A stretch of 64,000 nt of DNA, from the NCBI RefSeq assembly GCF_032362555.1, contig NC_083508.1:4121001-4185000 (forward strand), read 5' to 3'. The DNA comes from Amyelois transitella (lineage: Eukaryota; Arthropoda; Insecta; Lepidoptera; Pyralidae). The position numbers and the translations under genes were made by a program. Positions within the stretch are counted from its first letter, which is position 1; each line of letters begins with the position of its first letter. Below are positions 1,486 through 63,187 of the stretch, piece after piece. Under the pieces are notes generated by a model. It saw only the letters and a program-made list of their open reading frames with translations, had not been told where the DNA came from and ran no database searches.

Positions 1486-2319
1486 ATGAAGTGGATCATA
1501 ATAACAGTTTTAATTGTGATGTCGTCAGTGGTGTCGCAAGCTCGTCATATTAATCCTCACGGGAAACACACTGCGCCTATGGAAAAGCATGATTCAACTG
1601 TTTCAAATGAAGATGATTATGCAGACATTGTAAGTAATCAACTGTAATCGTTCTTATTAATAAAACGGATGTGTTGATAATTCTTTTCAGTGAGGGAAAA
1701 CATCGTGAGGAAAATTACACATTCGGACAATTGAATACATAATTAAGATCCAATATGTATTTGGTTTCTATGAAAAACTTACGGGAGTTCAGATGTGAGT
1801 CGTTTCGTGTAAAACCCGCAAAACCTGACTTACACAATCCCAGGATTGTAATCATGGACGGAGCCCGGAGTTCTCTACGGAGACCTATAAAAAGGAGATG
1901 TTTATAATAAATTCATTCGGAAATTAATTTTAAAACAATAATCGGCTGAAGTTTGCCTTCAGTTTGAGGCTGTTGGTTCTATCTACCCCGTAAGGGATAA
2001 AGACGGAGGCGATATAGATAATTATACATATTTATACAGTAGTGTTACATATGGTATGTATGTAAGTGTTTGGAATAGGTATTCCAGTCCAAAAATCCAG
2101 TCGAAAAACGCTATGAAGGATAAAAGAGATATCCTCATACTTATTTAATTTGCAAAGTTATTCACGTTACTATTGTTTATTTTTTAGGTAGAAATTCGAG
2201 CGATGAAGCCAGTGAGATTCGTCCCCATCAACAACGCAATGTACTTCAAAAATTACGAGCCCTGCGAGGAGGGCTACGCTCGGGATCGATTAGGTGTCTG
2301 CAGGGAAATCTGGAATTAG
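1486..2319 (+). CDS. Small secreted one-disulphide peptide precursor (ENF/secapin-like), gene 1
   Basis: Two coding exons, 1486-1629 and 2188-2319, joined in phase 0 across a GTAAGT...TTTTTAG intron, give 91 residues. Residues 1-18 form a clear signal peptide (MKWIIITVLIVMSSVVSQA). A polar spacer follows. The C-terminus holds CEEGYARDRLGVCREIW, two cysteines with 11 residues between, then Asn and stop. The loop C-x2-G-Y-x5-G-V-C-R-E-x-W recurs in the genes at 21955 and 26254. Its cysteine spacing matches the lepidopteran ENF (growth-blocking/plasmatocyte-spreading) cytokines, but the ENF N-terminal signature is absent. A basic site (KPVR) precedes the loop by 16 residues and could release a peptide of about 33 residues. 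Role inferred: haemolymph cytokine or defence peptide. Family assignment rests on motif spacing only. Confidence 0.8.
1680..1885 (+). repeat. Dispersed repeat family C copy
   Basis: Contains the family blocks CATCGTGAGGAAA, TTACACATTCGG, GAGTCGTTTCGTGTAAAA and AATCCCAGGATTGTAATCATGG. These recur near 7015-7235, 35820-35930 and 59960-60085. It lies in the intron of peptide gene 1 and is non-coding. Confidence 0.55.
1965..2035 (+). repeat. SINE family B 3'-end fragment
   Basis: GCTGTTGGTTCTATCTACCCC followed by GTAAGGGATAAAGACG matches the 3' end of the family B SINE (best copies 14325-14505 and 11745-11885). Sense orientation, in the gene 1 intron. Confidence 0.55.
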
Positions 2320-4178
2320 AAGCTAGTTTACTAAAATATCATTTTATTTTTAAATTGACAGGCTTCCAGTCTCATATTTTTTATAGAAATCTTGGTATAG
2401 CTTTAAAAAGTACCTATAAAACAATGACTAAGTGTTTACCGTTAGGAAACTGCAACTTTACAGTTTCAAAAGTTTGATGATTTTGATCAATTGTTTTGTT
2501 GCCCTAGTCCCGGTCAACCGGACTAATAACCAGATCCAAACCTGATCAACATAATTAAATAGTAAAAAAGGACGATCGAAAGCGCCTTAAAAATGGCCAA
2601 GTAATCTCGTAACAATTTAAAAAATGTACAGTTTTTCCATACGAGAACCTCATTCATTTTGAAGTCGGTTGATAATAACATCACATGTTTCATGTTTACA
2701 TTTTCTATATTTTTGTAATTAAAATGTTGACTTGCGACGGTACTGTTAAACAATTTGGGTTTTTCGGTAGTACATACTATATTGGCCCTCGTTTTTCCTT
2801 GTATACGAACTCCTATGACCAATCAAAGTAGCAGAAGACCAAAAATTACGTATTTGAATAGCTACATGATTTAAATTGTCATTTAGTTAACAGAAATACC
2901 TATAAGAATGTTCTTTTATGCTGATGTGAATGGCACAATTTGAAGTAATTTTTTTTTCTGATATTAGCTCTTGTCCTCCTGGCGTTAGTACCCTCACCTT
3001 CACTTGGAAGAGGAGCCCGGGGTACGCCCTGTCTTCGGTATTTGTGATATTAGAAGTAAGGTCATATTTTCATATAAGTTATAAAATTATATAAGTAGGT
3101 AATGATGATAATGTTTCGTACAACCGAATAATACAATATTAATTTTTAACAACGAGCAGATACAAGTTAATTGTTTAATGTAAGTACGGAATAAAAAATA
3201 GTTTTTAAAGACCAATGCATTGTTTTATTACTAGAACTTTGTTTTGTTTGCATCATCCAAGTTGTAATATTAAAAACTCTTTAAAGTCGTCTGCTTCTAC
3301 TGCTGCGTTATTGAGCGGAATGCGATTGAAGAGGCATCGTGCTACAAAATCCCTTGATGTGGTCGAGCCTAAAGAGATGGCTTATCATAGAATTATGTAT
3401 TATCCGATTTATATGTAACCATTGCTTATCTCAACTCATCAAGAGTTCCTATATACTATAATACTGACATATCTTTAAATTATAGTGATGACCATCGTAT
3501 TATAAACCAAATGTGGCCTGAAAACTGTGATAAAGAAAGTCCTACTTATAAACATTTTAGTAAACAATATTTTAATAGTATAGATGATTATAAAATAACG
3601 TATTTGCATACTTAGGTAACATGTATGCTGTTACGCATACTAAGTTCAATCTAAGGCAATCAAAAAAACGAAATGAGTTGATAAATTTAATTTAAGCACA
3701 TTCACGATACATTTAATCTAAATAAATTACCAAGATATTAATTACACAACAAACAAACAAATATGTGAAGATTTAGTTTCCTCGAAATAGACATCACAGA
3801 CTTAGTACTCAGTACATTGCACAAAAACAAACACCCGACTCCAAAATTTATTTGCCTTTAATTTTTTCCTTATCAGAGACATATCCAAATGATTTTCTAT
3901 AATTAGGCTCAATAATTTATTCGTTATTTTGGCTTATAAATCACAGTATGGATTATCAACATACTAATATGTCGACTTAATTATAACATAAGTACGAATA
4001 ATAATTATGCTTAGTGGAGTAACTGTTCTACGCAATTATGGGTAGAAGAAAATCTGGACTAGCTTTTTATCGGCAGTGGACTTCATGGTAAAATGAATTT
4101 AGTAGATACAAAATGTATTTATGTTATATGTACAAAGCGCTTTTAACATAAACAAGGTCGAGAAATATAAAGGCCTTT
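2320..4178. other. Intergenic stretch
   Basis: 3' flank of peptide gene 1 (plus) facing the end of the Kelch gene (minus). Only degraded repeat pieces were seen, for example 2950-3040 resembling family C. The short open frames here lack splice context or domains. I see nothing else. Confidence 0.5.
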
Positions 4179-7100
4179 CTACATGAAAGAAGCCGGGGGC
4201 AGCGTGACAGCTCCGTGGCCCGACAGCGGGGATGGCAGGGTCGCCACGCCTCGAATCCACGCGCCTCGTTCGCAGCAATACGATTCTACGTTGCTTAACG
4301 CTCGCATGTAGACTGTTGTCATTCCACCTGTAAATTATAAACGTTGTACTGGGAAGGGCTAGACAAACGTACCTTGATCAAACTGGGGATATACTGACGA
4401 AAAGTCAGCTCAAGAGTACCACATTACAGTATGTATGTGTATGAAGCGAAAGAAGTTTGTAGGAATCATGATGATTGGAAAGATGTACTAGCCTTTGCCT
4501 AAAACTCCGGAAAAGAGGCATGATTTTATGTATGTATAAGGAGATCATAGACAGTGTAGTGTACTTAAATTGAGAACTAGTTTGAGCTATTATTAAGTTT
4601 TAGTAAAGAAGGAAAAGTCGTATAACCAAACTCGATGAAATTGTATCTCAATAATCGTGTGAATAAACAATTCAGTGATTAATTTCATAGTAACTAGAAC
4701 GATACGTCGAGTAAATATCGTAAACATACTTAATCATCGATTTTCTTAGTGATCGGTTCGACATTTTGTAAACAACCTTGTTGGATAGTGGATATGACAC
4801 GTACGTATATATTCATTTTAAATCGTATTTATCTATTTCCGTAATGAAATATAATATCTGGATATCACGTTTAAGTAATTAAGGTCATATCAAAGACTCA
4901 AAGATTACGTTACCAGATGTTACTAGTCCATTGCCTTAAAAATGTTCCAAGTTTATAAGCATTTCCCTTGATTGACTTATAAAATAGCGCGCGAGGAGAG
5001 AAAATCTGGCTCACATTATGATATACAAATACAGAATAGAGTAGTACATTTTTATATTTGCATAATGACATACAAAAGCTTGCGGCCTGTATTTCAGAAG
5101 AAGCAATGACTAAAATTCTTTGAAAATTTCAACGCCTCTAAGAAAGAGACCGGAAAATCCTACAATATAAAGAAAATGAGAGAGAAATTTGTTTTGGAAG
5201 ATTTTTTTTTACAATTTACACAGATTGAGTTAGCCTCGAAGTAAGTTCGAGACTTGTGTTACGAGATACTTACTCAACGATACTATATTTTATAATAAAT
5301 ACTTAGATAGATAAACATCCAAGACCCAAACCAATCAGAGAAAGTTCGTTTCTCATCATGCCCTGACCAGGACTCGAACCCGGGACCTCCGGTGTCACAG
5401 ACAAGCGTATTACCGCTGCGACACAGAGGCCGTCAAATTTAAAAAAAATAATAAAAACAACCTCAAATATCATACCTCAATGGTTATATTTGAGGAGGAT
5501 ATATTCGAAATGGAATGTACTCGTATGGGTATAACAATTAAAATTAAAGCATTAAGGTGATTCTTAGAAAATTCTAGTCTTGACTGATATAGTTCTATGC
5601 TAATAAAATATACATTAAATTCGGAATGGTCAACTTGGAAAGAAAACTTTTGTGAAACATTTGATGATAGAGGGTGGTCTCCAGTAAAATATGCAATTTT
5701 GTTCAAATATAGGCAAGGGTCAAGGTTAATTTTAGTTTGTAATCATCTTTATTTTATAAGTAGTTTTTAGTTTTAATTTTGCTTATTCCAAAATGAATGA
5801 ACTATAGAAAATATATAACAGACCTATGATGATGAGCTGCGTGCCCAGATATGCGAGCGCGTGCCCGTGCCTGGGTATGGACATCTCCGTCTCAGGCTTC
5901 CACTCCCGCGCATCCCAGTCCCACGAGTCGATGGCTCCAACACTACTTGCAGTTTTATCCTGTTGTGCACATAAAAAATATTGGATCAGTATAAAATTTT
6001 AATTTGAGCTTACATATTTCATATCTGCCTGCATAAAAGAAGCGTGAGGTACGTAAAAGTTGGCCTACTTTCGTAGAAGCCCTGCAGATCTGTAACATAC
6101 ATAGAAAATTTAAATGCTGCACTAAATGTAATAAAATATATTTGCCTTATCAGATTTTTTTCCAGCGCCACCGATGATGTACAACTTATCATTCATCACG
6201 AACAATGTGGCGAGACACCTTGGAAACCGGAGACTGTGTATTTCTGTCCATCTAAAATTTGTTAAATAGTTATACTCTATTTATTTAAGTGACTAGACAA
6301 AACTTAATCATCTCAGGAAGTAAGTATTCTGGACAAGATGCTGTTTCACATACAAACGATTACTTACATATGATCACGTCTTAATCCTATTCTAAAGACT
6401 GAACGGCCACGTTCAGCTATATGGTTAAATTATGGAATTGAGAGTCAAATAGCAGGTTGCTAGCTCATCGCCAAAAAGAATCCCGAGTTTTTTCTACTAT
6501 CCTTTTGTCGCCTTTTACGACATCCATGAGAAAGAGATGGAGTGGTCCTATTCTATAATGCCGGGACAAGTGCCGGAGTTTTTTTAACCTTTACCCATTG
6601 AGTTTTAAAATTAAAAAGATGAACTGAGGTGCTTGTGTATGGAGTAAGTTTATAAGGCTGAATGTTTCGGTAACCAAAATATGCTTTGGAATTAATGAGA
6701 CGAAGTCATGTAAAATCGCTTGTATGCCTTGATTAGCAACTTCATTTGCAGCAAAATGGTACACATTAATAATGTAATTGTGTACAGTCGCCTAAAAAGA
6801 AACATAACCCCTCGTTCATACAAACCAAAATGCGATCAATTTCCTCAGCAAACAACAACAGCGGACAACCTATCATTTATAAATAATACAGGTATTAAAG
6901 GCACACGTAGGTATTTTATTTTATCTCGGACGTTTCGAATCATACAAAATCCCACCCATCATGTATCAATGACTATTTTTAAAGTTATGTACATTAGTTT
7001 GAATACTAACCAACGCTTTTACGGCGAGAGAAAATATCGTGAGGAAACCTACACATTCAGGCACTTGGATGTGTAACCATGGATCAATACGGGTTAGGTT

Positions 7101-9103
7101 TACCTGCAAAGGTTGAGGAAGTCATCAATGGGAACTCCCATTTGTCTTCCTCAACCTTACAGTTTCGTGTAAAAACCTGACTCGCCAATCTAGGATTCAT
7201 GGTCAAAGGTGAGGATAAAACCAGGAGGAAGAAGTTTCAAATCTTGCTACAATGATCCGTGGTCACCGAGCGTCCGACATATTATTTATAAATTGTAGAT
7301 ACATATAATGCAACGCGAAAGTTAATCAGTTCGTTATACCTACCATGATATCGCAAAATAAATATTTCTTTCTTCCTTACTCGTTAGTCTTAGAGTTGTA
7401 GCATTCAACGATCTTGCAAACTGGCTTCCTCTTCTCCCCGGTCATGCCGCCCGCCACCCAGATGTACTCGCGGTACTTGACGGCAGCCACCGCCATGCGG
7501 GCGACGCTCATCGAACGGACTTCGGTCCAGAAACCCGTTTTGGGATCAAACTTCTCCACTGATCTTAGAACTCTAGAGAAATATTTTTGTTGTTTTGGGA
7601 TGAGATTAATATGAGGATTAATAACTCTTGAAAATTTTGTGGATAATGTAGGCCAGGGAAAAAGTACAACCAGAAATCAGAAATCGAGGTTGTGTTGTAA
7701 AAGGAGAAGAATAAGTGCTAAAGAAATGAAAGGAATATTTTAGTCAATGCTTCCTAGCTTCGACCTTTTATTGCGCTGCATGTAGATAAATCTACCGCTT
7801 ATGATCCGATTACCTGAGCCTTGAGCCAAACTCAAAGCAGTATATTTGTAGTATTTTGACGGCCTCTGTGGCTCAGCGGTAGTACGCTTGTCTGTGACAC
7901 CGGAGGTCCCGGGTTCGAATCCCGGCCAGGGCATGATGAGAAAAGAACTTTTTCTGATTGGCCTGGGTCTTGGATGTTTATCTATATAAGTATTTATTAT
8001 AAAATATAGTATCGTTGAGTTAGTATCTCGTAACACAAGTCTCGAACTTACTTCGAGGCTAACTCAATCAGTGTAATTTGTCCCGTATATAAAAAAAAAA
8101 TAATACCACCAGGCAGTTTTCGTTAGTTGGACTAACACAAACTGCCTGGCAAGATACATTATTACCTTCCTTTCTTATCCTGTCCACCAATAGCATACAA
8201 TGCCATCCGGTGGACCACAAGACCAAAGTTCTTCCTAGGAATGGAGAGGCCAGACTCGCTGTACCACGACTTAGCAACAGGCTCGAAACTCCATACCGTC
8301 GAAACCACCACGGACTTGCCTCGGACGTCGTCGTCACGAGGATCTGCGCCTCCTGTAGGTACACATTAATAATTTATCCACAAAGCGTTACTTTCAACTC
8401 ATTCTTTTATTAACTTTCACTCGTACATTGGTGATAATGGTACATATTTAGCCCGAGTATTGACAACGTAAATTTAGTTTTATTTGAGCGAGTCTAAAAA
8501 CGTGCAACTGTACTTACCCACAAGGTAAACTCGCCCCCGTAAGAAAGCGACGGAATGATGGTGTCTTGGCTCCGGCAGGTCCCCTACGAAATCCCACACG
8601 TTGGTCACAGGATCAAATCTGGGAATCAAGTTAAAAGTACTAAGAGAACTTGATGACTGGTGAATGACGCTACAATTTTTTTTCTGGCGTTAATCCCGGT
8701 TACATTCTCACCTCTGGGGAGAGGAGCCTGGGGAGCCCTTATGATCATGAAGAAAATCCCATGGTTACCTCCACAACCTTTGCAGGGATATTGGTAACAG
8801 CTGCACCAGATATAATTATGTGTCCGTTCACTTGGTCGCATTTTACGACATCCATGGGAACTACAATATAACTTAAAAATAAGTTATTTCATAGCTTCCA
8901 TGCTTATAACCTGATTATGATTTTTACAGGCGGTATCTACTTACCTATAAATATTTTTTCCAGTATTATTTCCCATTCCATAAGTCTTATGTGGATCGAT
9001 ACCGCCAAAAACCAGCACCGTTTCTCGGTCCCAATTAAAAAGGGAGCCATCGTTCATGTAGTTTTTGTTGGTGGGTCCAAGGATTGAGGTGGACAATTTA
9101 TTC
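4179..9103 (-). CDS. Six-bladed Kelch propeller exons of the Kelch gene
   Basis: Part of the 4179-18795 gene. Six double-glycine strands are visible: VLVFGGID, VYLVGGAD, LYAIGGQD, YIWVAGGMT, LYIIGGAG and LIIIGGMT. Each has the downstream aromatic pair of the Kelch consensus (for example KFDPKTGFWTEV and SFEPVAKSWYSE). The last exon, 4179-4327, was found by phase: exon 26 ends after ATA-G and exon 27 supplies GT-GGA-ATG. It ends SGHGAVTLPPASFM and stop, a typical Kelch C-terminus. Propellers bind substrates; the partner is unknown. Confidence 0.85.
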
Positions 9104-12100
9104 CTAAAAATTATAATAAGAAACTGAAATAAGACCTAAATGACCAGAAACTTGATGCAAATGAAGCGATAGACGATATAAGTGGCATATTGCATATTGT
9201 AGTCAGAGGTCACTCGAATCTCCTCCATAGAATTCGAAACAATATGGAATGGTGAATATAAATACCTGACTGGAGTGTCTCGTCAAATGTCATTGTAAGG
9301 TGATTGATGGAAATGAAAAAAAGAATTAACAACAGAGCCACTCATCCTCACATGTTCTGCCTAGCTAGAGACTCTTTGGACTGGTCAAAGAGAGATATCT
9401 GTGGACTTCGGATATTGTTTTGAGATACAGGTGGTGGAGATCTGGATACAGGATCTGTACGACTGACGTTTCCGCCTGTCGGCGGCCTGAGTTGTGAAGG
9501 AGACGGTACATGTGACAACCTGAAATAAATATTTCATTGCGAATCTGTGGATCGAAGTTTGTTTGAATCATTTATTTACGTATTCATACTTTTTGTAGAT
9601 GTCTTTTTTGTTGAAATAGTTGAAATTTGAATAGCAAACTCTTGTGTTAGGTGAATTAGATCAACTAATATGGACAGGGATTTACGATCATTTCGATTGA
9701 TAGTACATCAATTGTTGTAATTTGAGCTTGTTACAGCGCAATCAGAATTCAGGATCAGCAATTGGTACTCGTATTTATGATCGTCTTGCTTAAACACCAA
9801 GATCTTTTAACTACCTATAAACCATCTAGATCAAACTTGGCCGAACGGGCATTCTGTATTGAGTCAGATAATTCCAATCGACTACCAATCCTCGATTTCA
9901 GGTAAGGTAAACTAGTAATATAGTAAATTAAAAAAATACGAACTTTCTAGATCCAGCCAAAGCGGCGGTTGCAGTAGCAAGATATGTTGCTGCTAAGCTG
10001 TGCCTCTTCTCGGCGTTAAATGCATATCGATTCTGCAATATAATAGTAGTGTAATGTATATTAGTAAAACTAGTTTATGGCATGGCATCTGAGTATTTAA
10101 GAGATTCAATACAAAACATTTTACATTTGTTGTTTTTAACCTCGATTTCAATGTTTTTGCATATGCCGTTATTACATATTAATTATTCCAATTATCTCGT
10201 TAGCTTTAAGCATAATAATTGACATACTGGGTTTTAAGGAAAATGAGCAAGGAAGCTATATGAAGTCTTTTGTCTATGAATAAATAAAGAATTTTAAAAT
10301 TGGTTACTTTGTCCGTGATGCTGGTGTCAGCGCTCTCCGCACTGGTTTCACTCGGGCTCGTGTGTGTTTCTGTTGAGTCTTTTTCCGGAAAATCTAGCAC
10401 GTGGTCTGTTCTTTTGGAAGGAGTTCTGTCACGCTGTAAATTAAAATAAGTATGTAATTTGTTTATTTAATAGAGCTGACAGGCATCTCAGGCTTATCCT
10501 TTTCATCGTGTCTTCTCTATATGTTCCATTGAATTTAGATCATAAAATTTATGAACGTTCCTATTAGATGTTTCTAAGTCACAAAATTGTATTACATCGC
10601 AAAGAGGAAAGCGCTAGTAAGGCTTATATATCCAGAATTTTTTCTAAGATTAGAAGATATCACTTCAGGAATAATAAGAACGTATGTACAACGATAAGAT
10701 TTCTATAAATGTGAATGAATTAGTTAACGTAAATAAATAAAGTAAGAGAAAACAAACTACGAAATCATGTAAAAGAAATATTATGAAAAATTACACTATC
10801 TCGTTGTACAGCAGTGTGCAACATATGAATCTCTTGAATCTGTTTTTGTTGTTGTTGTTGTAGCTTCCGTTGCTCCTGAAGATACGACACATAAAAATAA
10901 ACATAAATAAGTGAAAAAAAAAACAATTTATTACTCTGAATTGTTTAACCATTTACCCGATAAATAGTTTGGGGTATTTTTAAAATATAGTATGCTGAAT
11001 CACTATCTCATGAGACCCTGTAATAATTTCATTTTTACACATAGATATAAAAATAAGAAGATACCAATGGCGCCAAAACCTGAAATAAACTAAAAAAGAT
11101 CTGTACAAGCCAAGAAGAAAATTCTTTTCAGTTGAAAATACCTCAATGTGCTTCATCTGCCTATCCCTATCAGGGCTTTTCTTTCGGTCTGCCATATTAG
11201 GTATAGGCGGAACTTCTACTTCCTGCGATGGCGATCGAGGTGACATCACGCTATCCTGAAATTATAATACCTAAGGTTTAGAGGATGACCTAGACGAATG
11301 AACTTGGATCAAATCGGAAATTTTCTGGTGAAAGAAAACGTCTAGAGTATCATAAACCGATGAGCTTGTAGAGTGATGAATTATTATTTTGTACATTATT
11401 TTGTATATAGAAAACAGTCTTTGAAAACATGTTATATCTACTATGTATTCTTCTACTTTATTTACAAGTAAACTACTATACGATGTATATATGCGAGTAA
11501 AGCTGTAGGCAAAAGCAGCTATTATGGTAATCTATCTTATAAATGGTTGTTAGAGTACAACACACCTTTCTGCGGTGATCGAAAAAGTCACTCATCGTCG
11601 GAAATTTTTCCCTATCAGCTCCTAAGGACTTCAGCGTTGATAGAGGAAATTCCATATTGCGCCTGCGCATTTCTAACTTCTCCATATCTAGCCCGCGTGG
11701 GCTCCCTGTGCAATGTACATAAATATAAGTATCTAATCGTTATCCTTTGCGGGGTAGACAGAGCCAACAGCCTGATAGGCCGTCGTTCAGCTATTTGGCT
11801 TTAAGATAAAATTGAGATTCAAATAGTGACAGCTGCTTGCCCATCGCTTAAAAGAAGAATCCCAAGTTTATAAGCTCTGAATTTATAGGAAGAGATCTCA
11901 CTTACAGAAAATCCCACCTTTGTACCATGATTTCTATTTAACCTAAATATTGTTATTCTTTTGAACCAACAAATAACAATCATTAGGTAAACTTTTACAT
12001 CAACGACAAATTATGTGCAAATTTTTATTTCAATCTATCTTGTTTACGTGGGCTCAGAAGATAGCTGTGCTACCTCGCCTGATTGATCCACGAGAGGTGG

Positions 12101-15100
12101 CCTAGTTATCTTGAGCCGTGTGTAACTCACATTGTAGTAAAGAAAGTTTGGAGGTTAATCTAGGATTTGTTACCAGGTATGTCATCGCTTCTCCGCGGTG
12201 GCTGCATCACCGTCATTTGCTGGTACAACTGGTCCTTAGGGATCATGAATTGCTCCAAGTATTTCAAAAAGTCTTTATATGTGACGTGATTCTGGAAAAC
12301 AACAGTATGTTAGATTAAGTAAATGATCGAAAGCACGAAACAAATATTATGATCTTTTTCTCAGATTCGGTCTTTATGATAAAAACGAGAATGCGATTGC
12401 ATGCGAACTTTGAATAACTACCTATATACCAGGCTCATGTTTGTTCGCACCTTTATGAAATTTAATGAGAATTAAATAGTTCTACCTTTTCTTCCCCGAT
12501 CCAGTTTCTTTCAGCAGGTTCTGTGAGACCGAGAACGTCGATCCAATGATAGTAATTTTTGGAATTATTCCCATACCAATACTTTATGATGACATAGCTG
12601 AAACAATTTCACCATAAAATTAATTTCATTTAACTATTACTATTCCAATCCAAAGCATTAAAATTTCGGTAGCAACTTTATTAAATTTATGTTGAAGTCC
12701 ATAAGTAAATACCTATTATCCAATATTGAAAAATACAAAAAGTGAAATCTTTAGAGGCTTGTTTGTATTTGAGGGGAGGATGTTGAATGTTAATTTTGCA
12801 AGTACTAATAAGTATGTGATAAATGATTCTAACTTACGCGAGTCCATCATCCACCATTTGTTGCACCTCAGGCTCATTTACAATTTCGAGGATCTCCTCG
12901 TTGTCAGGGTTCCTCTTGATGTCCACCAGTTGCCAGGGGGAGATGAGACCGAAACGTACACATCTCATCACATCCACGGTATGCCGCCGTCGGGATGACC
13001 AGTCCGCGTACAACCATCGCACTCCGGCCATTAGGACTTCTATTTCGCTAGAGCATTAGAAATAAAGCAACATACTTTATTCTTTTGTATATTTGTCATT
13101 GTGTACTTAAAGATCATATGCTCGTTACATTGTAAGCCATATCATGTACCTGAATAAACTGAATAATTGAGGAATACTTTGGCTTCAAAGTATTCCTCAG
13201 TATATGTACTGGTCTGTTGTGGAAATCAATTAACAAAGATTTTCTATAGGCTTTAACGGTAAAATATTTGCCCGACAATCATCTTCTACCACTGGAAGAA
13301 ATGGAATGACTCTCCAGTCAATTGGATCAACTGTAGTTTACACGTTATGATGTGTGACTAGAGGACACAAGTAATATAAACGATCGTTAATAAGCTGATT
13401 AAACATAGTCATTCATAATCAGGTTTTATTTACAATAATTAGAACGTTACGAAGCAGAACGAGGAAAATGACGATAGTCTAATTGTTTTCAAAGCAATAA
13501 CGTAAGGTCTTGTAAATGGAAAGAAAATGGTAGAAATAGATTTAGAGTGAATAAAAAAAACATTTTTGCGATGGCTGAATTGCTTCCGTTGAGAAACGAG
13601 ATATAAGATTAATAATATTACCTTGTAACACATATATAATTTGATTTAAAAAAAGGCATGATTTCTTCTAGTTCCAGTTCAACGAAATCTCTTGATGCCA
13701 CCAATGGCAAAAAGAATCTCTTTACTCGTGGAATCTTTAATCAAAAATAAAATATATTCAATTAGTTTATTTTATACAATTGATAGAAATTTGACACTTG
13801 AAAATAACTGTGGAATAATACCATTAACTCAGTCACTGGGGTCATGCCTTTCAACCTGGCCTCTCTGTATAGCATAAATGCAGTATCTTCTATAAATAAA
13901 TCTTCACTTACGATAAAAGTCCAGCATTGTTCTTCTAGATCTGTTAAATTTGAGGTTAAATCGTGTTTTAGTTCTAAATTCTGTGATCATAAAATGTGGA
14001 TCATTATTTATGAATAACATTAAGGTTAAATAATTAACTATTGTTTTATACCTTTAATAGATAGATATTGGGCGGCACAAAATACATCGAGAACATTCCT
14101 TCTTTTTAATATTTTATTGCTCTCCGGACCACTGAAGATCATCCACTCATATATAGTTTGGAATGCCTCTGAAGAAATGTGTGCCTGTGAACCAACAAAA
14201 CCACATAAAATATTCTAAAGAAATTTGTCAAATTTCGTACATATTATCTGATCAAGTTTTAAAAATCGTGTGGTTTCCGGCATTTTAGATAAGAACCACT
14301 CCATATCTGGATGACGTACAAGGAGACTAAGAAAAAGGCTTTTAACTAGGGATTTCTCTTGTGGTTATGGGTTAGCAACCTGTCACTGTTTGAATTTCAA
14401 TTCCATCCAAAATACAGCTGAACATGGCCTTCCAGTCTTTTCAAGACTGTTGGCTTTCTCTCCTTCCTCGCAAGGGATATAGACGTGACTATATTTATGT
14501 ATGATTTGAATATTACTTAAAACAACGTGATTAATATCTCGTGTGATACTAACAATGGGTAAATCAATTTCTCTTTGAGTGTTCCTTTCGAAATAATTGG
14601 AGTATATCTGAAGTACAATTCTATGACAGTGGAATTCATCTTCGCCTATGTGAACAATGGTATCAGTGTTTCTGAAAAAAAAAATTGTTTTGTTTCATAA
14701 TAAGACAAAATTTCTTCAACCAATTTAATCATTATTTTTGTAAACAATGGATTATTAATTTTTCACTTGCATTGAAGCATGTATCCTTCGATAGAATTCC
14801 TGAAATAAGTCTTGTTTCTTTGGTAACTGCACTCTGGTCCAATCTATGGGTTCTGCATTACCATATCCAAGACTATTCAAACATTTTGATTTCTCTGCTT
14901 TAATTTCTTTATCAGGAGATTTGACTTTTGCATTTCTTTCAAATGTTTTTGTTGGATATGTATCTCTACCACCATATTGTAATTGAGGTTCATCAGTTTC
15001 AATCTCGGTTTCCTGAAATATTATGATTATAATATTATTTTTTTGTTAATCATGCAAAACTGCATACTAGTCTAGAACAACCTAATTTTTTTTCTAAAAT

Positions 15101-18795: not shown

Positions 18796-20720
18796 TACAA
18801 TGTCATGCTAACTTATTTTAAGTTACGAAAAAGTTTCATTCAATTTATGAAATATTTGTGTTATTTGTAAGATTAAATTTTGGAATCTTGAGTACTAAAA
18901 GGAATTTTATGATATTTCGTACTTCATGCATGTTTTACGGAGGCCATACGTCAAGTATTCGCGAAAACTGCATTTGATTCAAAACCAAGTAAGTAAACTT
19001 TTAAACTTTATTTGTATCATCAATAGCTTTATTGATTTTTTTTTACTTTCTTGAAACTTTTTATTCTTCCTTGATCAGTAACGAAAAATTTAAAACGTAC
19101 AATTCTTGGTACTAAAAAGCTGATGTAAGCTGTGGAAACCAACATGAACTCAAACCTTAGCTAATATTTGTTTGGTCAAGGCTTGTGGATGAGTTGATTC
19201 TTATTGACATTACTAATAACCAAAAACAACTTGATCATTAGTTACTCATTGCGCTTCATTGCCCGTAGTAACTAGTTAAATATTGAATATAAAGAAATAG
19301 GAGTCGGACACTTTATTTCGATTTATATGATATTGAATAGATTTTGACAAATGTAATATTTATCCATCTATACTATTAATAAAGAGAAAAGATTTATATT
19401 TTTGTATGTTAGTAACAAATAAACTCAAAAACTACTGGACTGATTTTCACGCAATGTGGCACAGATATAGAATCAACCTTCGAAATAAATTACTTTTTAA
19501 TCTCTGATTTCCCACTGGAGCGAAGCCCCGCGCAAAAGCTAGATAAATATAATAATATTATATTAATATTTAAAGCTCGCTAAATAAAATGAAGAACACA
19601 AAATGATATCCTATGTGTATATTTTAGGACACCGATATTAGTTGGCAGATACAAAAAATAAGATCATACATCCGGCATTGTCCGGTAATCGAGTATCACA
19701 ATAGGAGGTCAAAAATATAGCACAGAGTTTTTTACAAAGACTCTGACGCTCTAAAAAAAATTACGTCAACAAGTGAAACGAAAATCCCATGACGTTATAC
19801 CAATAAGCATTTTAGTGACGTGAATGTATAGTGCATTGTATTTATACAGAGTATTCTGCCCTTGTTCCTTCAATAACTTCCTGAGAATGTTGGAACATTC
19901 AATACATTAAACGCGTAAGATCGTTGGCTATCTATATTTATTGCAAACATCCTGCCATGCCGATATTGACCAGACTACGCCTTACAGCGATAAGGAAATA
20001 GAATTCCAGTTATTATAGCGAACCTAAACGTCTGAATTTAGAAATATCGGTTTTTGTGTTAACGAATAAAATGACAATGAAATAAAAACTACTCTTGAGG
20101 CCTCAATCGATCAAGCATGACGAATTAAAAGTAACGAGATTGAAATTTTAATGAAAATAAACTAAGAATAACACTTAGACATTTTTTATTTTTAACGATG
20201 GCGGACATTGCCGAAGCTTGTTGATGTTATGTTTTATTTTTTCAGGCATTAAAAAACAGAGAAAGCGGCGTGTTAATTTTGAAGGCATATAATTTTTGTG
20301 ACTTCAGTGAATGTCCTTGATCATAATACTTTATTATTAGATATCCTCTAAATAAACAAAGGAAACACACCTATACACTAAATGCTAAAGTAAACTAAAA
20401 GAGTGAAAGAAAACATGGAACATTACCAAGAAGTTAGTATATAGTAGATTTTGTTTGTTTATTCATATCTTCTTTTTCATTTTGCTTAGTAGATATTGAT
20501 TTTGTCTATCTTTTGAAATGTATTTTCATTAATTACGTTTAAATTGATGAAGCAGTAAACAATGGTATCATTAGTTGCAGCTGGCTTATCTCCTCTAAAC
20601 AAATAAATGTAAACGACCACTTAACCACGTCTATAACTCTGATGATTACAACAAGGTGGGCCCAGATAATGTTAAGCTGATAATAGCAGGAAATCGATCG
20701 ATATCAAATGCTGAACCACC
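18796..20720. other. Intergenic stretch between Kelch gene and peptide gene 2
   Basis: Probable upstream region of the minus-strand Kelch gene and of plus-strand peptide gene 2. It holds one short Helitron-like element (19367-19542) and otherwise AT-rich sequence with no supported gene. Confidence 0.5.
19367..19542 (+). mobile_element. Short non-autonomous Helitron-like element
   Basis: Begins TCTATACTATTAAT after an A and ends GGAGCGAAGCCCCGCGCAAAAGCTAG, with a GC-rich hairpin about 10 nt before the terminal CTAG. No target duplication is expected for this class. The same end type is seen at 28553-29472. Confidence 0.6.
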
Positions 20721-20725
20721 AAAGG

Positions 20726-20919
20726 TATAAAAGGTGTCCGGATGAATCATCGCATATGTCATTCTGCAACTGTGTGTTAGTCTGGAGATAAAGTACTGGG
20801 AATTTATTTTGTAGAGTTTTAGATTGTAGTATATAACGCAGACCGGCCGGCGTTTCGACCAGTTTGGATATTGATCTAGTGTCTGTTGGTTGTTCGAGAT
20901 AATTTGGAGGAATCTTATT
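20726..20919 (+). promoter_or_regulatory. Promoter and ATG-less 5' exon of peptide gene 2
   Basis: TATAAAAG at 20726-20733 precedes a TCATTC initiator-like site at 20759-20764. The inferred untranslated exon runs to 20919, followed by GTAAGT at 20920. It contains no ATG. The acceptor is TTTGTTACAG ending at 21950. Confidence 0.55.
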
Positions 20920-21954
20920 GTAAGTATTGGCAATTGTATTATTAACTTTTATAGCGTAGTTACTTAATAATAAGTCAGTATTATATGAATAAACAGGACC
21001 TAATATATTTGCACAAACATAAGAATTTTACGTACTTATAAATTAAATTTATTTACTAATAATATGAATCTTTAGTTGCCTATTATTGTCTATAAAATAT
21101 TAAAATTTCTAAGTCTTCATTTGTGTGTAATTTGGACATGGTTTGTTTATAAATAGTGATACTGATAAAATTTTACACTCTCACTCCCGTTTATATTAAT
21201 CCGAATATTATTAGTTAAAAATATACAACGAACGTATTTTAATTTGTCTTGTATAATGGCCATACGCTATACTCGTATGTATATAAATCCTATGAACATT
21301 CTGCAGAATTAAACAAAAAAAAAATTATAAACGTGCCGGAAATATATGATCGAAGCCGCCTTGGAACCCTAGCGTTTATAAGAGAATCTGATGGAAACAA
21401 ACTTTTGATATTTTTCGACTTAAAAAATCCACTACAACCTTATTTCCAATACTTTCATCATATACCTACTTAACATTATAAACAATGTTCTTACCTGGTT
21501 TCATTCAATACATTTGTGAAGCGTAAATTTTTTTCAAGGTTACATAAATTAACATCCCTACATTTGAAAAGATTCCTAAAAGTAATACATATAGTGGAAT
21601 TATTACACCTAGATAGTAAGATGTATGCTTTCTTACTTTTCATTATAGGGTTATAATATAAAAGAGATTTAACACGCCACGTGTTCTAAAAATAGCTAAG
21701 TAGGAACCAGCTCCGGACAGCGACCTTCGTTGGCGGTGACATTGCAGTTTTTATACATTAGGGAGTCTCGCTCCTGACCAGAGGCCTTCGTAAATTCCTC
21801 GCAACAAAAAACTGCTTTGTTATATCGATCATCTGTGAAAGATTCATTTGGAAATTCACATTTATAGAATTCGTTTTTTTCATTTTTGTAATAGGTGGTA
21901 ATTGTTATATTCAAAACGCTTTAATCCTATTTTTTTTTAGTTTGTTACAGAAAA

Positions 21955-22182
21955 ATGGCTGACCGCATGGTATTCCCCGATGAAGTTGAAAAAGCTAAGG
22001 CTGAAGCCCTTGAAAACGCAGAAGAGACAAAAGTAGAAGAAGTAAAAAGTAACTCTATTGAAGACACTTCAGGCAGTGTAGAAACACCTCAAGTCACTAT
22101 GAGGAATGTCATTGTTGTACCTGGAAATTGTCCGCCAGGGTACCAGATGGGAGCAGATGGTGTTTGCCGAGAAACCTTCTAA
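21955..22182 (+). CDS. Leaderless one-disulphide peptide precursor, gene 2
   Basis: Single coding exon of 75 residues, four bases after the acceptor at 21950. The N-terminus is acidic and helical (MADRMVFPDEVEKAKAEA) with no hydrophobic segment. The C-terminus, after a lone Arg (VTMR), reads NVIVVPGN and then CPPGYQMGADGVCRETF and stop. Two cysteines are separated by 11 residues, as in genes 1 and 3. The stretch from RNVI onward is nearly alignable with gene 3, so the pair are recent paralogues by eye. Known relatives by motif are ENF cytokines (same spacing) and secapin-like peptides (VP..CPPG-type start), both normally secreted. Here no signal peptide is visible. An upstream coding exon in phase 2 cannot be excluded by exon 2 alone, but exon 1 has no ATG. 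Confidence 0.75.
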   Translation: MADRMVFPDEVEKAKAEALENAEETKVEEVKSNSIEDTSGSVETPQVTMRNVIVVPGNCPPGYQMGADGVCRETF

Positions 22183-22461
22183 GTTGTTCCTCTTCTAAAA
22201 CTAATCTTTTAAACAGATCTCTATTTCTAAATTTATCCACCTTCAAACTTTCCATGTGCAGTTGTTGTTCTTGTATGATCGCAATGATATCAGTATATCG
22301 GATTTATCAGGTTCAAAATGGTCATACCATGATTAAATCAAATGTGATTGTGACGCAGAGGTAGCTATATCTCGCAGTTTGAATACTAAAGAATTGTTTA
22401 GGGAAGCAGTAACTTGAATATCATCGTGTAAAACACTTGGGAAACTGAGGTTAATTCTAAA

Positions 22462-22467
22462 AATAAA
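22462..22467 (+). terminator. Poly(A) signal AATAAA of peptide gene 2
   Basis: First canonical AATAAA downstream of the stop at 22182, giving a 3' UTR of about 300 bases. Confidence 0.5.
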
Positions 22468-22929
22468 TCAATGAATTGGAATCTTTAATTAATTTAAGAT
22501 TGTATCGGTAATTTAAGACCTCCCAGTATTAATTCTTTTGATGTTTTTTATTGTGATGTTTTTCAAATAAGTATTTATGTATGTTAAAGTATTAAATAAT
22601 AAGCATAAATTAAGAGTAAAATTTCGTTTTATTTCATGCCCTTTTGGTTTGACGCATTTGAATTTTGTTTCTAAGTAGCTTGTGTTTGGATCAGAGCAAA
22701 AATACAAGCTTTATAGCAGCATTTCAATTGATGACAAACGAAAAAGTAGGTATTCCTTCTCTGTCCCATGTCTTTTGTGTGTAGATGAACAGAGTTATTT
22801 TCGCTTCCATAATAATAGTGAGGATGCATAATAATAGGTACCCCAAAATTATCTATATAGTATGTTCGATATAAGTACAATGTGTTACGCATAACACGAT
22901 AAAGGACAGTTCTTAAAACTGATAGTATC
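22468..22929. other. Short intergenic stretch
   Basis: AT-rich sequence between peptide genes 2 and 3. Two minus-strand open frames of 64 and 73 codons have no domain, promoter or splice support. I see nothing further. Confidence 0.4.
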
Positions 22930-22937
22930 TGACGTCA
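22930..22937. promoter_or_regulatory. Perfect CRE octamer upstream of peptide gene 3
   Basis: TGACGTCA about 200 bp before the predicted start at 23132. Two further ACGTCA half-sites lie at about 23054 and 23121. A GGGAATTCAG box near 23090 resembles part of an NF-kB/Dorsal site but is not a full match. Confidence 0.45.
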
Positions 22938-23098
22938 ATTAGACAATGATGTAATGATGTGTAGGCAATGCCGGAGGCACTCCGTCGAATCCGTTACAGT
23001 ATATATCCCTGTACAATTTCCCCGGAAGGTGATTCATATGAACTGAATCTCTAACGTCATGCTGTTATATATGGCTTTTGGGAATTCAGCCTGTTCTT

Positions 23099-23262
23099 AT
23101 TATATATTTCAAGGCGACCAACGTCACAATCAGTTCGTTAATTGACACAGTGCCATTTGGACGTGCCTTTGGATTCTTTTGTTTTTAAGATTTTGAAGTG
23201 ACTAAAGTTGTGTTCACCGTATTGTGAACAGTTCAATTTAAATACCAAAAATAAAGACGCAA
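23099..23262 (+). promoter_or_regulatory. Promoter and ATG-less 5' exon of peptide gene 3
   Basis: TATATATTTC starts about 31-33 bp before ATCAGT (23129-23134), giving a textbook TATA-initiator pair. The inferred exon 23132-23262 has no ATG and ends at a GTAAGA donor. The intron to 26244 hosts a DNA transposon. Confidence 0.6.
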
Positions 23263-23656
23263 GTAAGATTGGAAACCATCAAACTAAATCTAACGGTTTC
23301 GTATAAATTGGCGTGTTCAAAATATTCTGGATATACCTAGTAATATAAGTGAGTATTTGATATTTGATTTGATACCTTATTTCTTAATTTCGTGATTTAC
23401 ACAAAAATAACTATGGATGGAAAAAATATCTTATAAAATTGAAAAAAAAAACAACTCCTTAAACGTTAAAAAAAACTATAGCTAAACGTAGCCTTCAAGT
23501 CTTGTGACTATTGGAACTGTCTACCCTGTAATGGAAGTTTGTGTACTTTTACGATTACGAATGCGCATGATGTTAATTTCACTCGCATCTTATTTAAATT
23601 CTCATAGTTAAGACATAGTGATGTGTTTGATCAGTGACGTTGTTTTTGGAATATTA

Positions 23657-25710
23657 CACAGGCCTGCAAAAAAAAAAATTTTTTTTGGTGCAGCCCTGTT
23701 AGTGTCTATGTTCGATAAAGTAGGTAATGTAGGGTATATTGCCTAACGCCATTTTAACTCATCAGCTGTAGTTTTCGTTCTACCCTCGTTTTCAATTTTT
23801 GCCTGTCTTGGTCGTAAAAAGTCATTATTACAATAACATCGATTAAGTTTATGTTGATATTTCATTATGGCTAGTACGTCCAGATGTTGTGTTAACAATC
23901 CTGATCAATTTTGTTATGTTTGTGGTCAATTCATACTGAAAGGTCAGCGCAAATCAATTACAAACACTGTAAATCGTTTGTATTTTGCTTACTTCGGAAT
24001 TGAAATTCGACAGCAAGATAAAGTGTGGGTGCCTCATAGTGTTTGTAAAATATGTGTTGAACATTTGCGACAATGGGAGAAAGGTACACGCAAGTCTTTG
24101 AAGTTTGGAGTACCTATGATTTGGCGAGAACAAAAAAATCATTTTGACGACTGCTACTTTTGTATGACTAATACGGTGGGCATCAACAAAAACAATCGCC
24201 ATAAATGGAAATACCCTAATATTTCTTCAGCACAAAGACCTATTCCTCATTCAGAAAATGTTCCAATACCAACTTTTCACCAGGAAGTGCAGCAATCTCA
24301 CGAGAATCAAGTTGAAAAACCGGTTTCTTCTGAAGATGATTACTTTGAATACTGCGAAAAAACATCAAATCCTAAGCCATTTTCGCAGAAAGAGCTTAAT
24401 GACCTTATCAGAGACTTAGATCTTTCTAAGGAACGTGCTGAATTACTGGCGTCAAGATTAAAAGAAAAAAACTGTCTTACTGCAGATGTTCGAGTGTCTA
24501 TATATCGCACGAGAGAACAAAGTTTATTGCAGTTTTTTTCATCTGATGAAAATTTTGTGTATTGCTGTAATGTGAGTGGTTTGCTAACTTTCATGGGTTT
24601 GCCAACCTATCAGCCCAATGAATGGCGTCTCTTTATTGACAGTAGTAAACGAAGTCTCAAAGCAGTTCTCCTACATAATGGAAATAAATATGCTCCCGTT
24701 CCAATTGCTAATTCGACATGTGTGAAAGAAGAATATGAGGTAATTTCAATTCTGTTACAGAAAATAAAATATTTTGAACATGTCTGGGTGATCTGCGTCG
24801 ACTTGAAGATGGTTAATTTTTTACTGGGCCAACAGAGTGGTTATACTAAATACCCATGCTATATTTGTCTCTGGGACAGTCGAGCCAAATCACATCATTG
24901 AACTCAAAAAAAATTGGCCAATGAGAGATGCTCTTGTTGTTGGGGAAAGAAACGTTATAAATGAACCCTTAGTTTCAAGAGAAAAAATCATTCTTCCGCC
25001 ATTGCATATTAAGTTAGGGCTAATGAAGCAATTTGTTAAGGCTCTCGACAGAAATGGGCAATGTTTTCAGTTTATTTCACGGAAATTTCCTGATTTAAGT
25101 ACTGAAAAACTGAAAGCAGGGATCTTTGATGGACCTCAAATACGTCAATTAATGAAAGACACCGCTAATTTTGAGACTTATATGAGCGAACTGGAAAGAC
25201 TTGCGTGGAAATCTTTTGTAGCAGTTACACGAAATTTCCTCGGAAATCATAAGCCTGAGAACTATGTTAACTTAGTAGAAGAAATGCTAGTTTGTTTCAA
25301 AAATTTAGGGTGTAATATGAGTATAAAAATACACTATCTCCATAGCCATCTGGATCATTTCCAACACAATTTAGGAGATCTAAGCGAAGAACAAGGAGAA
25401 CGTTTCCACCAAGATATAAAAACGATGGAGAACAGATATCAAGGAAGATGGGACGTTCATATGATGGCTGATTATTGCTGGGGAATCATGCGAGATTTTC
25501 CAAGTCAATTTAATTCCAGGAAATCTTTCAAAAGGCAATTTCTTGATGTCTAATGCCAATAAAGTTTTTTTTTTGTGAAATTTATGTTTTTATTTATATC
25601 GAAAACTAGAGCTGATAGAAAAAAACTGATAACATTTTTGATATCACCATGTAAGACTTATTTAAAATCAGGTCCAAAACCCCCGGCACCAAAATCGTTG
25701 TAGGCCTGTG
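23657..25710 (+). mobile_element. DNA transposon with CACAGG termini inside peptide gene 3 intron
   Basis: Inverted ends read CACAGGCCTGCA (left) and CACAGGCCTACA (right, reverse complement), with TTTTGGTGC shared further in. Flanks fit a TTA duplication, or TATT if one more A belongs to the end. About 2.05 kb, with its own transposase-like frame and an AATAAA just after it. CAC ends with a 3-4 bp duplication suggest the CMC group, but I leave the superfamily open. Confidence 0.7.
23867..25553 (+). pseudogene. Transposase-like protein with one frameshift
   Basis: Two overlapping frames, 23867-24901 (344 codons) and an overlapping frame to 25553 (from 24837), belong to one protein broken near 24897-24902 by a small indel beside an A-run. 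The N-terminus has CYVCG...CKIC, a ZAD-like zinc-binding pattern, then a second CYFC pair. The middle has DLSKERAELLASRLKEKN and an IDSSKRSLKAVLLHNG stretch. Near the break is CYICLWDSRAKSHH. The C-terminal part has LPPLHIKLGLMKQFVKALD and SEEQGERFHQDIK...YQGRWD. This protein type is repeated in many arthropod genomes, and acidic residues in these blocks are candidates for the catalytic triad. Its position between inverted ends indicates a transposase. The single break suggests recent loss, or an assembly error. Confidence 0.65.
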
Positions 25711-26253
25711 TTATTAGAGAACATTGGGTAAACATTCTATACGATACGAGATTTATACAGCTGTGTAGTTTAGCCCACTTCCCTTCGGAAAATTAAAGTT
25801 ACTTTTACGTTAAGAATAGAAAAAGAGAATCCAATACTTTATGAAAAGTTGTATAGATAAGATTAATGATATAGGTACCCATTACAAAACAGTTTCAATT
25901 CGTCCAATAGATAAAAAAAAACACCTGCATCAAATTGGTAAACTGAATCATAAAAATGTTTACGCGGCAAATTTTTGCGATGTTTTGTTGACCCATTAAT
26001 TATTGTATGATGATGAACTGATAGTAGACGCTAGACGCTAATTGTGTTTCATTTACAAATTCTAACAAGCGAAGTAATGAAAAACCTATGGTTTTACCAA
26101 TGAAATCCCCCATCCTACTCGTATTCATGATTGATTGAATAGTTAAGAAATTATCACATTTAACACACGGAAAAGCTACATACGTTATCATTTCGTATTC
26201 TAAAAGAAAATGAGCCTTAACATAGTTTTCATTTAAAATTTCAGTAAAATACA

Positions 26254-26463
26254 ATGTCTGACAACGATCACGACCAGCCTACTACTTGCAGCGATGGAGA
26301 TAAAACTACACAATATGACGACGAAACCTGCTCGACCAAAGAGTCTTCTGCGGACAAACCTCATAGAAGAACTCGCAGGAACGTGATATCTGTTCCTCCG
26401 AATGTGAAATGTCCAGAAGGCTACGAATTGTCTGCGGACGGAGTTTGTCGGGAAGTGTGGTAG
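26254..26463 (+). CDS. Leaderless one-disulphide peptide precursor, gene 3
   Basis: Single coding exon of 69 residues. The acceptor TTTCAG ends at 26244. The first in-frame codon of the exon, 26245-26247, is TAA, so the ATG at 26254 must be the start and no upstream signal-peptide exon can be spliced in frame. The N-terminus is polar and acidic (MSDNDHDQPTTCSDGDK). HRRTRR forms a furin-like basic site, followed by NVISVPPNVK and CPEGYELSADGVCREVW and stop. Cleavage would free a 27-residue peptide. Cysteine spacing (11 between) equals genes 1 and 2. Two extra cysteines lie in the spacer. A furin-like site in a protein without a secretion signal is odd and suggests unconventional export or an intracellular role for the precursor. 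Confidence 0.8.
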   Translation: MSDNDHDQPTTCSDGDKTTQYDDETCSTKESSADKPHRRTRRNVISVPPNVKCPEGYELSADGVCREVW

Positions 26464-30768: not shown

Positions 30769-33026
30769 TTACTCGTCCTCCCAGGGACAAATGTCGTTCC
30801 GCTGCTTACGCTCACCGATGCCGCTTTTATTATCACGCTTAACAATATTGGATTCAGAAACCGACGACAGTTCGTCTGTATGAGCAATTATTTTTGGAGC
30901 GTCCGAATGGAACGCCGCCTCGGTTGCTCCCGAGGCCCTTAGCAGGGGCGCCGAAGGCACTTTGTCTACGTTGTCGTCGTCGACCCCGATGTCCTCGCAA
31001 ACTGCGAGCGGTGCAACTGGCGGTCGCGTTGGAGCCGTGCTTTGAGCGCTCAGAGAAGCCGGCACGCTCGTCGTGCTCGCTGCACTCGGCACGCTTGTCA
31101 CGCTTGCTGCGCTCGGCATGCTCGTAGCGCTCGGTGCACTCGTTATGCTTCCTTCCCTAGACATGCTTGGTGCACTCGGAATCTTAGATACGGTTGACTT
31201 GGGGCAGCTCGCCGTGTCAGCCGTCTCGGCGCTCTTACCCGGCGTCGTCTCCATTGACGCTTCACATCTTGAGGTCTTCATCGGGCTGCTATCTGATGTG
31301 CTCGAAATGCTCTTGGACTCTGAGAGCGTTCTATCAGATTCCGACGCGCACTCTTTAACGCGAGCGCCTTCTGGAAGATCGCCGATTTTGCAACTTGTAT
31401 TTTTACTTGAGGCCGGACTGATTTCCTTCATCGTTGACGGTTCTCGGGAGAGCGTACCTCTAACAGAAACGACCTCGTCGGACGACTGCGTTCGTTCAGA
31501 TTCCTTCGAGTCTGACATAGCGCCAGAAGCGCTCGAGTTGTCGTGGGATTCAGATTCGGTCGCAGATCGCGCACTCACTAGCACTTTAGAAAGTTCAGTT
31601 CTAGAGTCATCACAACCGGGATCGGGGGCAGCGACGTTTGCGCCCCGATCCTCGAAAGTTTTGAAAGACGGGCGACACGGGTCCGTCGGTGTAGCGTCCG
31701 CGGAGGCGAACACCGAAGAGGGCTCATCTGACTGCGCCACGGAGCGCGGCTCATCGGGCGATCCGGTGCCGGGCGGCGAGTCAACGCAGTCATCGTCGGG
31801 CGCGGAGCTGACGCTGATGGTGGGCGTGGGGTGCGGTGGTGGAGCAGCCGCGACGGGCGGAGGAGCGGGTGCGGGGCGCGGCGGCCGCGGCGAGTGCGGC
31901 GGCGAACCCAGCGGCGCCAAGTGCCGCGGTTCCACTGCTGACAGCCGCCGCAGTGGCGGTGGTGCACCTATACATTCGTTTGCGTATTAAATAAGACTTT
32001 CATACTTATTTGTGTGCAATATTGACTGTGCGTATTTATCTGATGAGCGGCTTTAAACACAACAAAAGGATAAAGGTAAAACGACAGAAGGTAAAAATAG
32101 CACAACATACCCCTCAATCCCCCATCCAGCGTGCTCTGCTGCGGCAGCCGGCGAGTTCGCTCCTGGACGGCAACGGCCGCGCTGACATCAGACGATGAGC
32201 TGCCGGAGTCCGCGGCGGAGTCCTGCCGACGTCTGCTTGCGACGCAGTACACCCCCTCCCGAGACGAACTCTCCCACGGTAAAACGTCGGCCGTGTCGTC
32301 ATCAGGATCCCTGTAATTACCAATGTTCTCAATTCAATTATGATTTTACCGCACCTTCCGTCTTCTATATCTAGATAATTATGGATCAGACACAAACGCC
32401 TTTATGGTAAAAACGCATTACAGTTCTCCGAAGCTGCCCAGCTGTCTGAACCTTAGCCGCCTTGGTACTAGGCACAATTTGATTAGTAATTATAACTGGT
32501 GCGGCGCGATCCACAACAAAAGTACTATGTTTGTTGCCTACATGACGTCTTCTTTATGGTAATCGCATCATTTATTAATTCATATTGTAACCAAACTATG
32601 CTATATTAACGTTGAAAAGCTAAAAAAAACATGAACTAATAAATTTGATCGCTGAGATACGGGGTCTCACAGCGGTCCGCGGAGCCCGACAGCGACCAGT
32701 TGGAGTCCCGCCGTTTTAACAGAGCGGCTCCGCTCCCTACGCTGTCACTCGTCTTCCTCAGACAAGCTATGACTTAAAAGAAACTCAGCGGACTTCACTA
32801 AGAACAGTACCTGAAGGGTATAATATCGCAAAGGTTGGACTGCGAGTGGCTGTGGGGCGGGGGCTCGGCGGTCCGCGGGGGCTGCGCGGCGCACACGGCG
32901 AGCTCGTGCGCGGAGCCCGACAGCGAGCGGTCGGAGCCCCGCCGTCGCGACAGAGCGGCTCCGCTCCCACCACTGCCACTGGTCGATCCCGGCTTCTTTT
33001 TTACTTGTCCGCCGAAATTGAAGAAT
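30769..33026 (-). CDS. RGS7: Disordered C-terminal tail exons of the RGS gene
   Basis: Three exons join in phase after the RGS box ([13 protein letters not shown], then PFR/DPDDD, then RG/APPPL). The composition is Ser/Pro/Ala-rich, with a proline run near the start of the last exon and a short degenerate repeat (SVPSAAS type) at about 31040-31170. Two PWE motifs are present: VLPWESS and the extreme C-terminus NDICPWEDE. The GC content here is much higher than around it, which creates long open frames on the opposite strand that I do not call. Confidence 0.75.
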
Positions 33027-63047: not shown

Positions 63048-63187
63048 CTGTAATGTTATTCTAGTAGTTAGTAAAAATGTAATGTAATTCTTAAAAAAAT
63101 TGACAAAGTTTGTAGGTCGGAAAATTCTTTACATTTTTTATCATTGTGTGGTCTGCACCAAAATAAAGAGAGGATCTCCTAAAAATG

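Follow-up and report, generated by a model that had tools for sequence, protein, structure and literature searches.

Three genes in a 64,000-nucleotide stretch of the Amyelois transitella genome (C4:4121001-4185000; this whole stretch is referred to here as the window) appear to encode small proteins that end in a single-loop hairpin peptide of the GBP/secapin-like type. They are probably paralogues of a multi-loop secapin-like gene located 1.5 Mb from the window on the same chromosome. We assign this reading a probability of roughly 0.55 and infer, by analogy, a GBP-like signal role for the products. Judged by sequence, the window genes would sit between two named families, resembling the ENF/GBP peptides in loop spacing and the secapins in the lead before the loop and in the nearest relative found.

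The three genes share the loop C-x2-GY-x5-GVCRE-x-[WF], encoded on the forward strand at window positions 2263-2313, 22129-22179 and 26410-26460. Gene 1 terminates in CEEGYARDRLGVCREIW, one further residue (N) and the stop codon, and in genes 2 and 3 the stop directly follows CPPGYQMGADGVCRETF and CPEGYELSADGVCREVW, respectively. These loops and endings were found as the first-pass annotation of this DNA had described them, and a search of all six frames of the window placed the strict pattern at these three sites only. A looser pattern (C2GY5GxC[RK]) and the broad insect GBP consensus C-x(2)-G-x(4,6)-G-x(1,2)-C-[KR], taken from an excerpt of PMC6439351, each returned the same three places. 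Neither the strict nor the C2GY5 pattern occurred in 200 first-order Markov windows; the GBP consensus averaged 0.06 per Markov window and was present in 12 of the 200. At the nucleotide level, a 14-base pattern for G-[VA]-C-R-[DE] was found three times in the window versus a mean of 0.06 in 100 shuffles, and was absent from the eight 10-kb flanking stretches that cover 40 kb on each side. All three loops fit the GBP consensus, in agreement with the earlier remark on an ENF-type cysteine gap and GY...G.C pattern. The gap between the cysteines is 11 residues in genes 1-3 and in ENF peptides, and 10 in the repeats of the multi-loop gene.

Genes 2 and 3 have more in common than the loop. The RNVI-x-VP lead that had been reported for them was recovered by BLASTP, with 19 of 30 residues identical, and the secapin-like VP..CP.G lead is present in both. 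Over 26 aligned codons, 14.8 of the 18.5 synonymous sites and 14.2 of the 59.5 non-synonymous sites differ. Within the 17-codon loop, 11 residues are the same, seven of them encoded by different codons. Synonymous sites thus differ far more than non-synonymous sites, indicating that the protein is the conserved level, and genes 2 and 3 are constrained as proteins.

We searched the moth's own genome (327 Mb, 33 contigs) with a translated gene 2 query and the GBP_PSP profile; the resulting family count is a lower bound. The gene 2 query gave five matches, namely itself, gene 3 (E-value 1.3e-4) and three exons at C4:5662988-5665730 (0.003, 0.14 and 2.4). These exons are part of the multi-loop secapin-like gene (C4:5661736 to about 5666800), which starts with a signal-peptide exon (ATG at L006:5736) and continues with loop exons. 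Three loop exons encode NVVTVPPNCPEGQVLVNGVCRDIW, NVVVVPPNCPPGQTLVNGVCRDIW and NVVVVPPNCPPGYVLVNGVCREEW, and two more loops share another exon, the latter of them led by RRNVITVP, which resembles the lead of gene 3. Four repeats follow the pattern NV[VI]xVPxNCPxG[YQ]xxxNG[VA]CR[DE]xW. On our reading of the letters, the exons would be joined in phase 2, including the junction from the leader to the first loop exon. Against the Pfam Secapin profile, four exons of this gene scored 13.6-23.7 bits (best E-value 4.9e-5), short of the cut-off of 25.9. Weak matches of the multi-loop exons to CC domain and FOG_N were taken as chance or composition. The fourth loop exon carries an insert of about 0.6 kb (L006 about 8120-8755), flanked on each side by the word CTATGTACTAGT.

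Identity counts against the repeats and against the genome's ENF peptide were used to grade the kinship with the multi-loop gene. Against the four clean NV[VI]xVP repeats, gene 3 has 15-17 of 26 positions identical (17 of 26 for repeat 3), versus 8 of 24 against ENF. The corresponding values are 12-16 of 26 versus 11 of 24 for gene 2, and 10-13 of 23 versus 8 of 21 for gene 1. Gene 3 is clearly nearer to the repeats than to ENF, and the margin is small for genes 2 and 1. These counts make the kinship firm in the case of gene 3; for gene 2 it is fair, and for gene 1 it is weak. The window genes and the multi-loop gene are alike in the NV[IV]xVP lead, the loop, the CR[DE]xW ending and the phase-2 acceptors as read from the letters. 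They differ in that the multi-loop gene has several loops per precursor and a signal-peptide exon, whereas each window gene has one loop. The kinship with the repeat exons of the multi-loop gene, 1.5 Mb from the window, means that the family extends beyond this locus. The proposed local expansion around the neighbouring Kelch gene is therefore only partly borne out, with three copies in 25 kb and none detected by pattern in the 40 kb on either side, but with relatives at a distance. The three genes point to a way in which exon copying from a secreted gene with many loops could give rise to signal peptides with only one.

Compared with ENF/GBP/PSP peptides, the window genes likewise have one C-terminal loop, closed by a putative disulphide, with an 11-residue gap, G-Y past the first cysteine, an aromatic end and a C-terminal position of the peptide in a pro-protein. 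Unlike ENF genes, they lack the E-N-F N-terminus (the leads expected from the inferred cut sites are NVI and FVP) and stay below the cut-off of the GBP_PSP profile PF02425, and genes 2 and 3 have no visible leader. With the cut-off at 25 bits, the gene 2 peptide scored 14.1 bits (E-value 0.036), and the peptides of genes 1 and 3 were unlisted; the controls, a GBP fragment and the genome's own ENF gene, scored 51.5 and 36.1 bits, respectively. Seven GBP_PSP matches were found in the genome, and only one was above the cut-off (39.1 bits). This is the ENF gene at C5:5621308-5621376, whose precursor runs as an intronless open frame from leader to ENF peptide (L008 1090-1572) and has a true ENF N-terminus. 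The window was dropped as the site of the genome's ENF gene, which sits on C5. The second match (L009), judged from its letters, is an EGF repeat of a protein that resembles lipoprotein receptors. The three window genes thus do not encode canonical ENF peptides, and if the proposed reading holds, GBP-like signals of this moth would outnumber the one ENF gene above the Pfam cut-off.

Secapins (PF17521) share with the window genes a single disulphide (putative in the latter) and, in genes 2 and 3, the VPxNCPxG lead. Unlike secapins, the window genes remain below the cut-off of 25.9 bits (13.3 bits for the gene 2 peptide; genes 1 and 3 unlisted) and have an 11-residue loop, versus 10 residues in the multi-loop relative. 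According to excerpts of PMC11335235, secapin-like peptides are found in caterpillar venom, one of them being TPTX1 of processionary moths, and the authors note that such peptides occur more widely in insects and may function in normal physiology; a venom role is not indicated for the window genes. The claim that the family is distinct from named ones was not refuted, with only sub-threshold matches for the loops and no full-length alignment to a named family.

In the proposed mechanism, the product of each gene would be a small pro-protein, the C-terminal 25-34 residues of which form an EGF-type beta-hairpin peptide with one disulphide. Cleavage after arginine, between R and NVI in genes 2 and 3 and between R and FVP in gene 1, would free the peptide. 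By analogy with ProPSP, an ENF precursor that is cleaved to a 23-residue peptide according to part of PMC5821394, the predicted products begin with NVISVPPNVK (gene 3), NVIVVPGN (gene 2) and FVPINN (gene 1). Once freed, the peptide may serve as a stress or immune signal outside cells in the manner of GBP, which according to an excerpt of PMC6439351 affects haemocytes, growth and the response to stress and in Drosophila works through Mthl10. By this analogy, the window peptides may be cytokines. Gene 1 would exit by the normal secretory route; genes 2 and 3 would either depend on a leader exon located upstream or be released leaderless.

The structures of the genes bear directly on this question. 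Gene 1 had been annotated as one span of 1486-2319 but is split into two exons on the forward strand. Exon 1 (1486-1629) encodes, by hydropathy, the signal peptide and the start of the pro-region (MKWIIITVLIVMSSVVSQA...) and ends at the donor GTAAGT at 1630. A phase-0 intron (1630-2187, GTAAGT...TTTTTTAG) separates it from exon 2 (2188-2319), which holds the end of the pro-region, the loop, the final N and the stop at 2317-2319. The splice sites are clean, and the 91-residue product has a clear signal peptide. Genes 2 (21955-22182) and 3 (26254-26463), also on the forward strand, are each a single acidic open reading frame (ORF). Gene 2 encodes 75 residues (net charge -8), has RNVIVVPGN before the loop and lies next to a phase-2 acceptor at 21951; gene 3 encodes 69 residues (net charge -5), with RRTRR followed by NVISVPPNVK before the loop. 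The best 10-residue hydropathy was 3.06 for gene 1, -0.11 for gene 2 and -1.24 for gene 3, and this analysis found no signal peptide and no hydrophobic N-terminus in the ORFs of genes 2 and 3. The earlier view of three like genes is right as to the shared loop, but it missed that a signal peptide is visible in gene 1 only.

We give an even chance to the explanation that these are ordinary secreted secapin-like peptides, with genes 2 and 3 preceded by an unrecognised leader exon with a phase-2 donor and secreted in the usual way. An upstream leader exon is possible because both genes, as in the multi-loop gene, have acceptors in phase 2, at 21951 for gene 2 and, for gene 3, at an alternative site inside the ORF (26292) that scores 0.9 versus -0.1 for the acceptor at 26245. 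Leaders are present in the other genes read, namely gene 1, the multi-loop gene and the ENF gene. The phase-2 leader donor of the multi-loop gene, as read from the letters, scores only -0.2, so that other genes of this family may also have weak donors, and the scan for leader exons was therefore run with a relaxed donor filter. It returned one phase-2-donor candidate in the 9,951 bases before gene 2 and three, including one with its ATG at 22785, in the 10,292 bases before gene 3, one candidate being shared. Against this explanation, the background is 20 and 26 such candidates per 64-kb strand, the upstream candidates are no commoner than that, and no convincing leader exon was found among them. 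In addition, an in-frame TAA directly follows the gene 3 acceptor at 26245, and the gene 3 ATG, 9 nucleotides past that acceptor, needs no upstream coding exon.

It is unlikely, but worth weighing, that genes 2 and 3 encode leaderless alarm peptides, cytosolic proteins whose GBP-like C-terminus is freed by cell lysis and arginine-specific haemolymph proteases. The absence of a hydrophobic N-terminus is consistent with this, as are the M-[AS]-D starts and the positions of the ATG codons, that of gene 2 being 4 nucleotides past its acceptor. So are two possible ATG-free leader exons on the forward strand, both called with low confidence. The one for gene 2 spans 20759-20919 (TATAAAA at 20726, initiator-like TCATT at 20759, donor GTAAGT at 20920 scoring 5.8), and the one for gene 3 spans 23130-23262 (TATATA at 23101, initiator TCAGT at 23130, donor GTAAGA at 23263 scoring 7.6). 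These calls are weak, however, because pairs of TATA and initiator motifs are frequent in the scanned stretches, with four in the 2.2 kb before gene 2 and four in the 4.1 kb before gene 3. Alignment of the upstream regions of the three genes gave no convincing common promoter. Leaderless release is further opposed by the disulphide loop, which is better suited to the secretory route, by the secretion of the related genes read and by the phase-2 acceptors, which permit a leader exon. The fuller proposal that genes 2 and 3 are leaderless GBP/secapin-type pro-cytokines that would serve as alarm signals at cell breakage, having derived from the secreted multi-loop gene by leader loss, seems slightly more doubtful still. 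If the missing leader is real, cell damage or an unusual route would be the only way out of the cell for these insect GBP-type peptides, and in their logic they would be an insect counterpart to the leaderless cytokines of vertebrates. Among the literature titles and abstract openings covered, none named these genes or a leaderless GBP.

Several observations weigh against membership of the GBP/secapin-like group and paralogy with the multi-loop gene. None of the window genes has a match above a curated cut-off in Pfam or NCBIfam. The top Pfam match for the peptides of genes 2 (E-value 0.0088) and 3 (0.0016) is cEGF (PF12662), to which they score 16.3 and 18.7 bits, respectively, below the cut-off of 26.6 (gene 1 unlisted). 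Among the PDB sequence matches, 10 of the 11 for the gene 3 peptide are EGF-type chains and one is GBP, and the two for gene 1 are both IMPI. In Foldseek, gene 3 ranks an IMPI chain first and a GBP second, and none of the 56 and 60 matches of the two Foldseek searches reached E<=0.001. In the own-genome search, two of the three multi-loop exon matches have E-values >0.1, and the loop without an NV lead, the first of the last repeat exon, is identical to all three genes at only 6-7 of 21-22 positions. Lastly, codon-usage scores trained on 853 codons from neighbouring exons were equalled by 15-43% of random open stretches for the six pieces tested, and we regard this test of the ORFs as uninformative.

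Part of these results would be explained if the loops were generic EGF- or TIL-type C-terminal hairpins that arose by chance or convergence, with another role such as protease inhibition and no kinship to GBP. Hairpins of the C-x2-GY...G-x-C form also occur in cEGF (PF12662), at the C-terminus of EGF domains, and in IMPI. When a profile of the three genes was compared with the PDB, GBP came first of 26 matches (0.02, 17.8 bits) and most of the others were coagulation factor VII, whose EGF domains reached 14.2 bits; these domains and, for gene 1, IMPI match almost as well as GBP or better. We nevertheless consider this explanation improbable. Hairpins of cEGF/EGF and IMPI are parts of larger multi-disulphide domains, unlike the window loops, which have one putative disulphide and a stop 0-1 residue past the aromatic. 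The gene 2 peptide had eight PDB sequence matches at E<=10, and all eight were GBP, PSP or paralytic (ENF) peptides (best 0.021). The similarity of the NVIxVPxNCP lead to the secapin-like gene also argues against a chance hairpin. Weak matches of gene 3 to HCV_capsid (0.01) and FXa_inhibition were taken as chance or composition, and a profile scan of IMG/VR gave 75 pattern matches, none of which was confirmed.

Predicted structures agree in part with the GBP-like reading. AlphaFold models, built on three-row alignments for two of the three genes, contained a C-terminal hairpin with a confidence score (pLDDT) of about 80 in gene 3 and in a 40-residue gene 2 fragment, and low confidence elsewhere. 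The predicted strands are residues 57-59 and 65-67 in gene 3, and 28-30 and 36-38 in the gene 2 fragment. For gene 2, the first three Foldseek matches were ENF peptides (PSP1, a GBP and a paralytic peptide), and the predicted hairpin superposed on PSP1 at 0.7 A over 17 columns. The comparison with ENF structures that had been suggested at the outset therefore favoured the expected fold for gene 2, with PSP1 first, but not for gene 3, with IMPI above GBP, and the E-values were not significant in either case. Non-significant values are expected because the fold is so small.

That the genes are pseudogenes or spurious ORFs is very improbable: the weak codon signal and a transposon-like element between genes 2 and 3 would fit, but the frames are intact, the splice sites of gene 1 are clean, and change between genes 2 and 3 is near-saturated at synonymous sites and low at non-synonymous sites.

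The element between genes 2 and 3 (23656-25711) resembles a DNA transposon, with inverted ends (ACACAGGCCT...) and TATT at both flanks. It contains two overlapping ORFs in different frames (23867-24901 and 24837-25553) and a weak zf-AD-like match, below the cut-off, near the N-terminus. This element would fall within the putative first intron of gene 3. Elsewhere in the window, three genes on the reverse strand can serve as synteny anchors: a BACK/Kelch protein gene (about 5900-13031), an R7-type RGS protein gene (30769-38421) that encodes DHEX and RGS domains and has a DEP match below threshold, and the C-terminal exon of GLOD4 (62752-63060). Two copies of a reverse-transcriptase-like ORF, near-identical by eye, also lie on the reverse strand at 43339-44487 and 63209-64000, and the first matches RVT_1.

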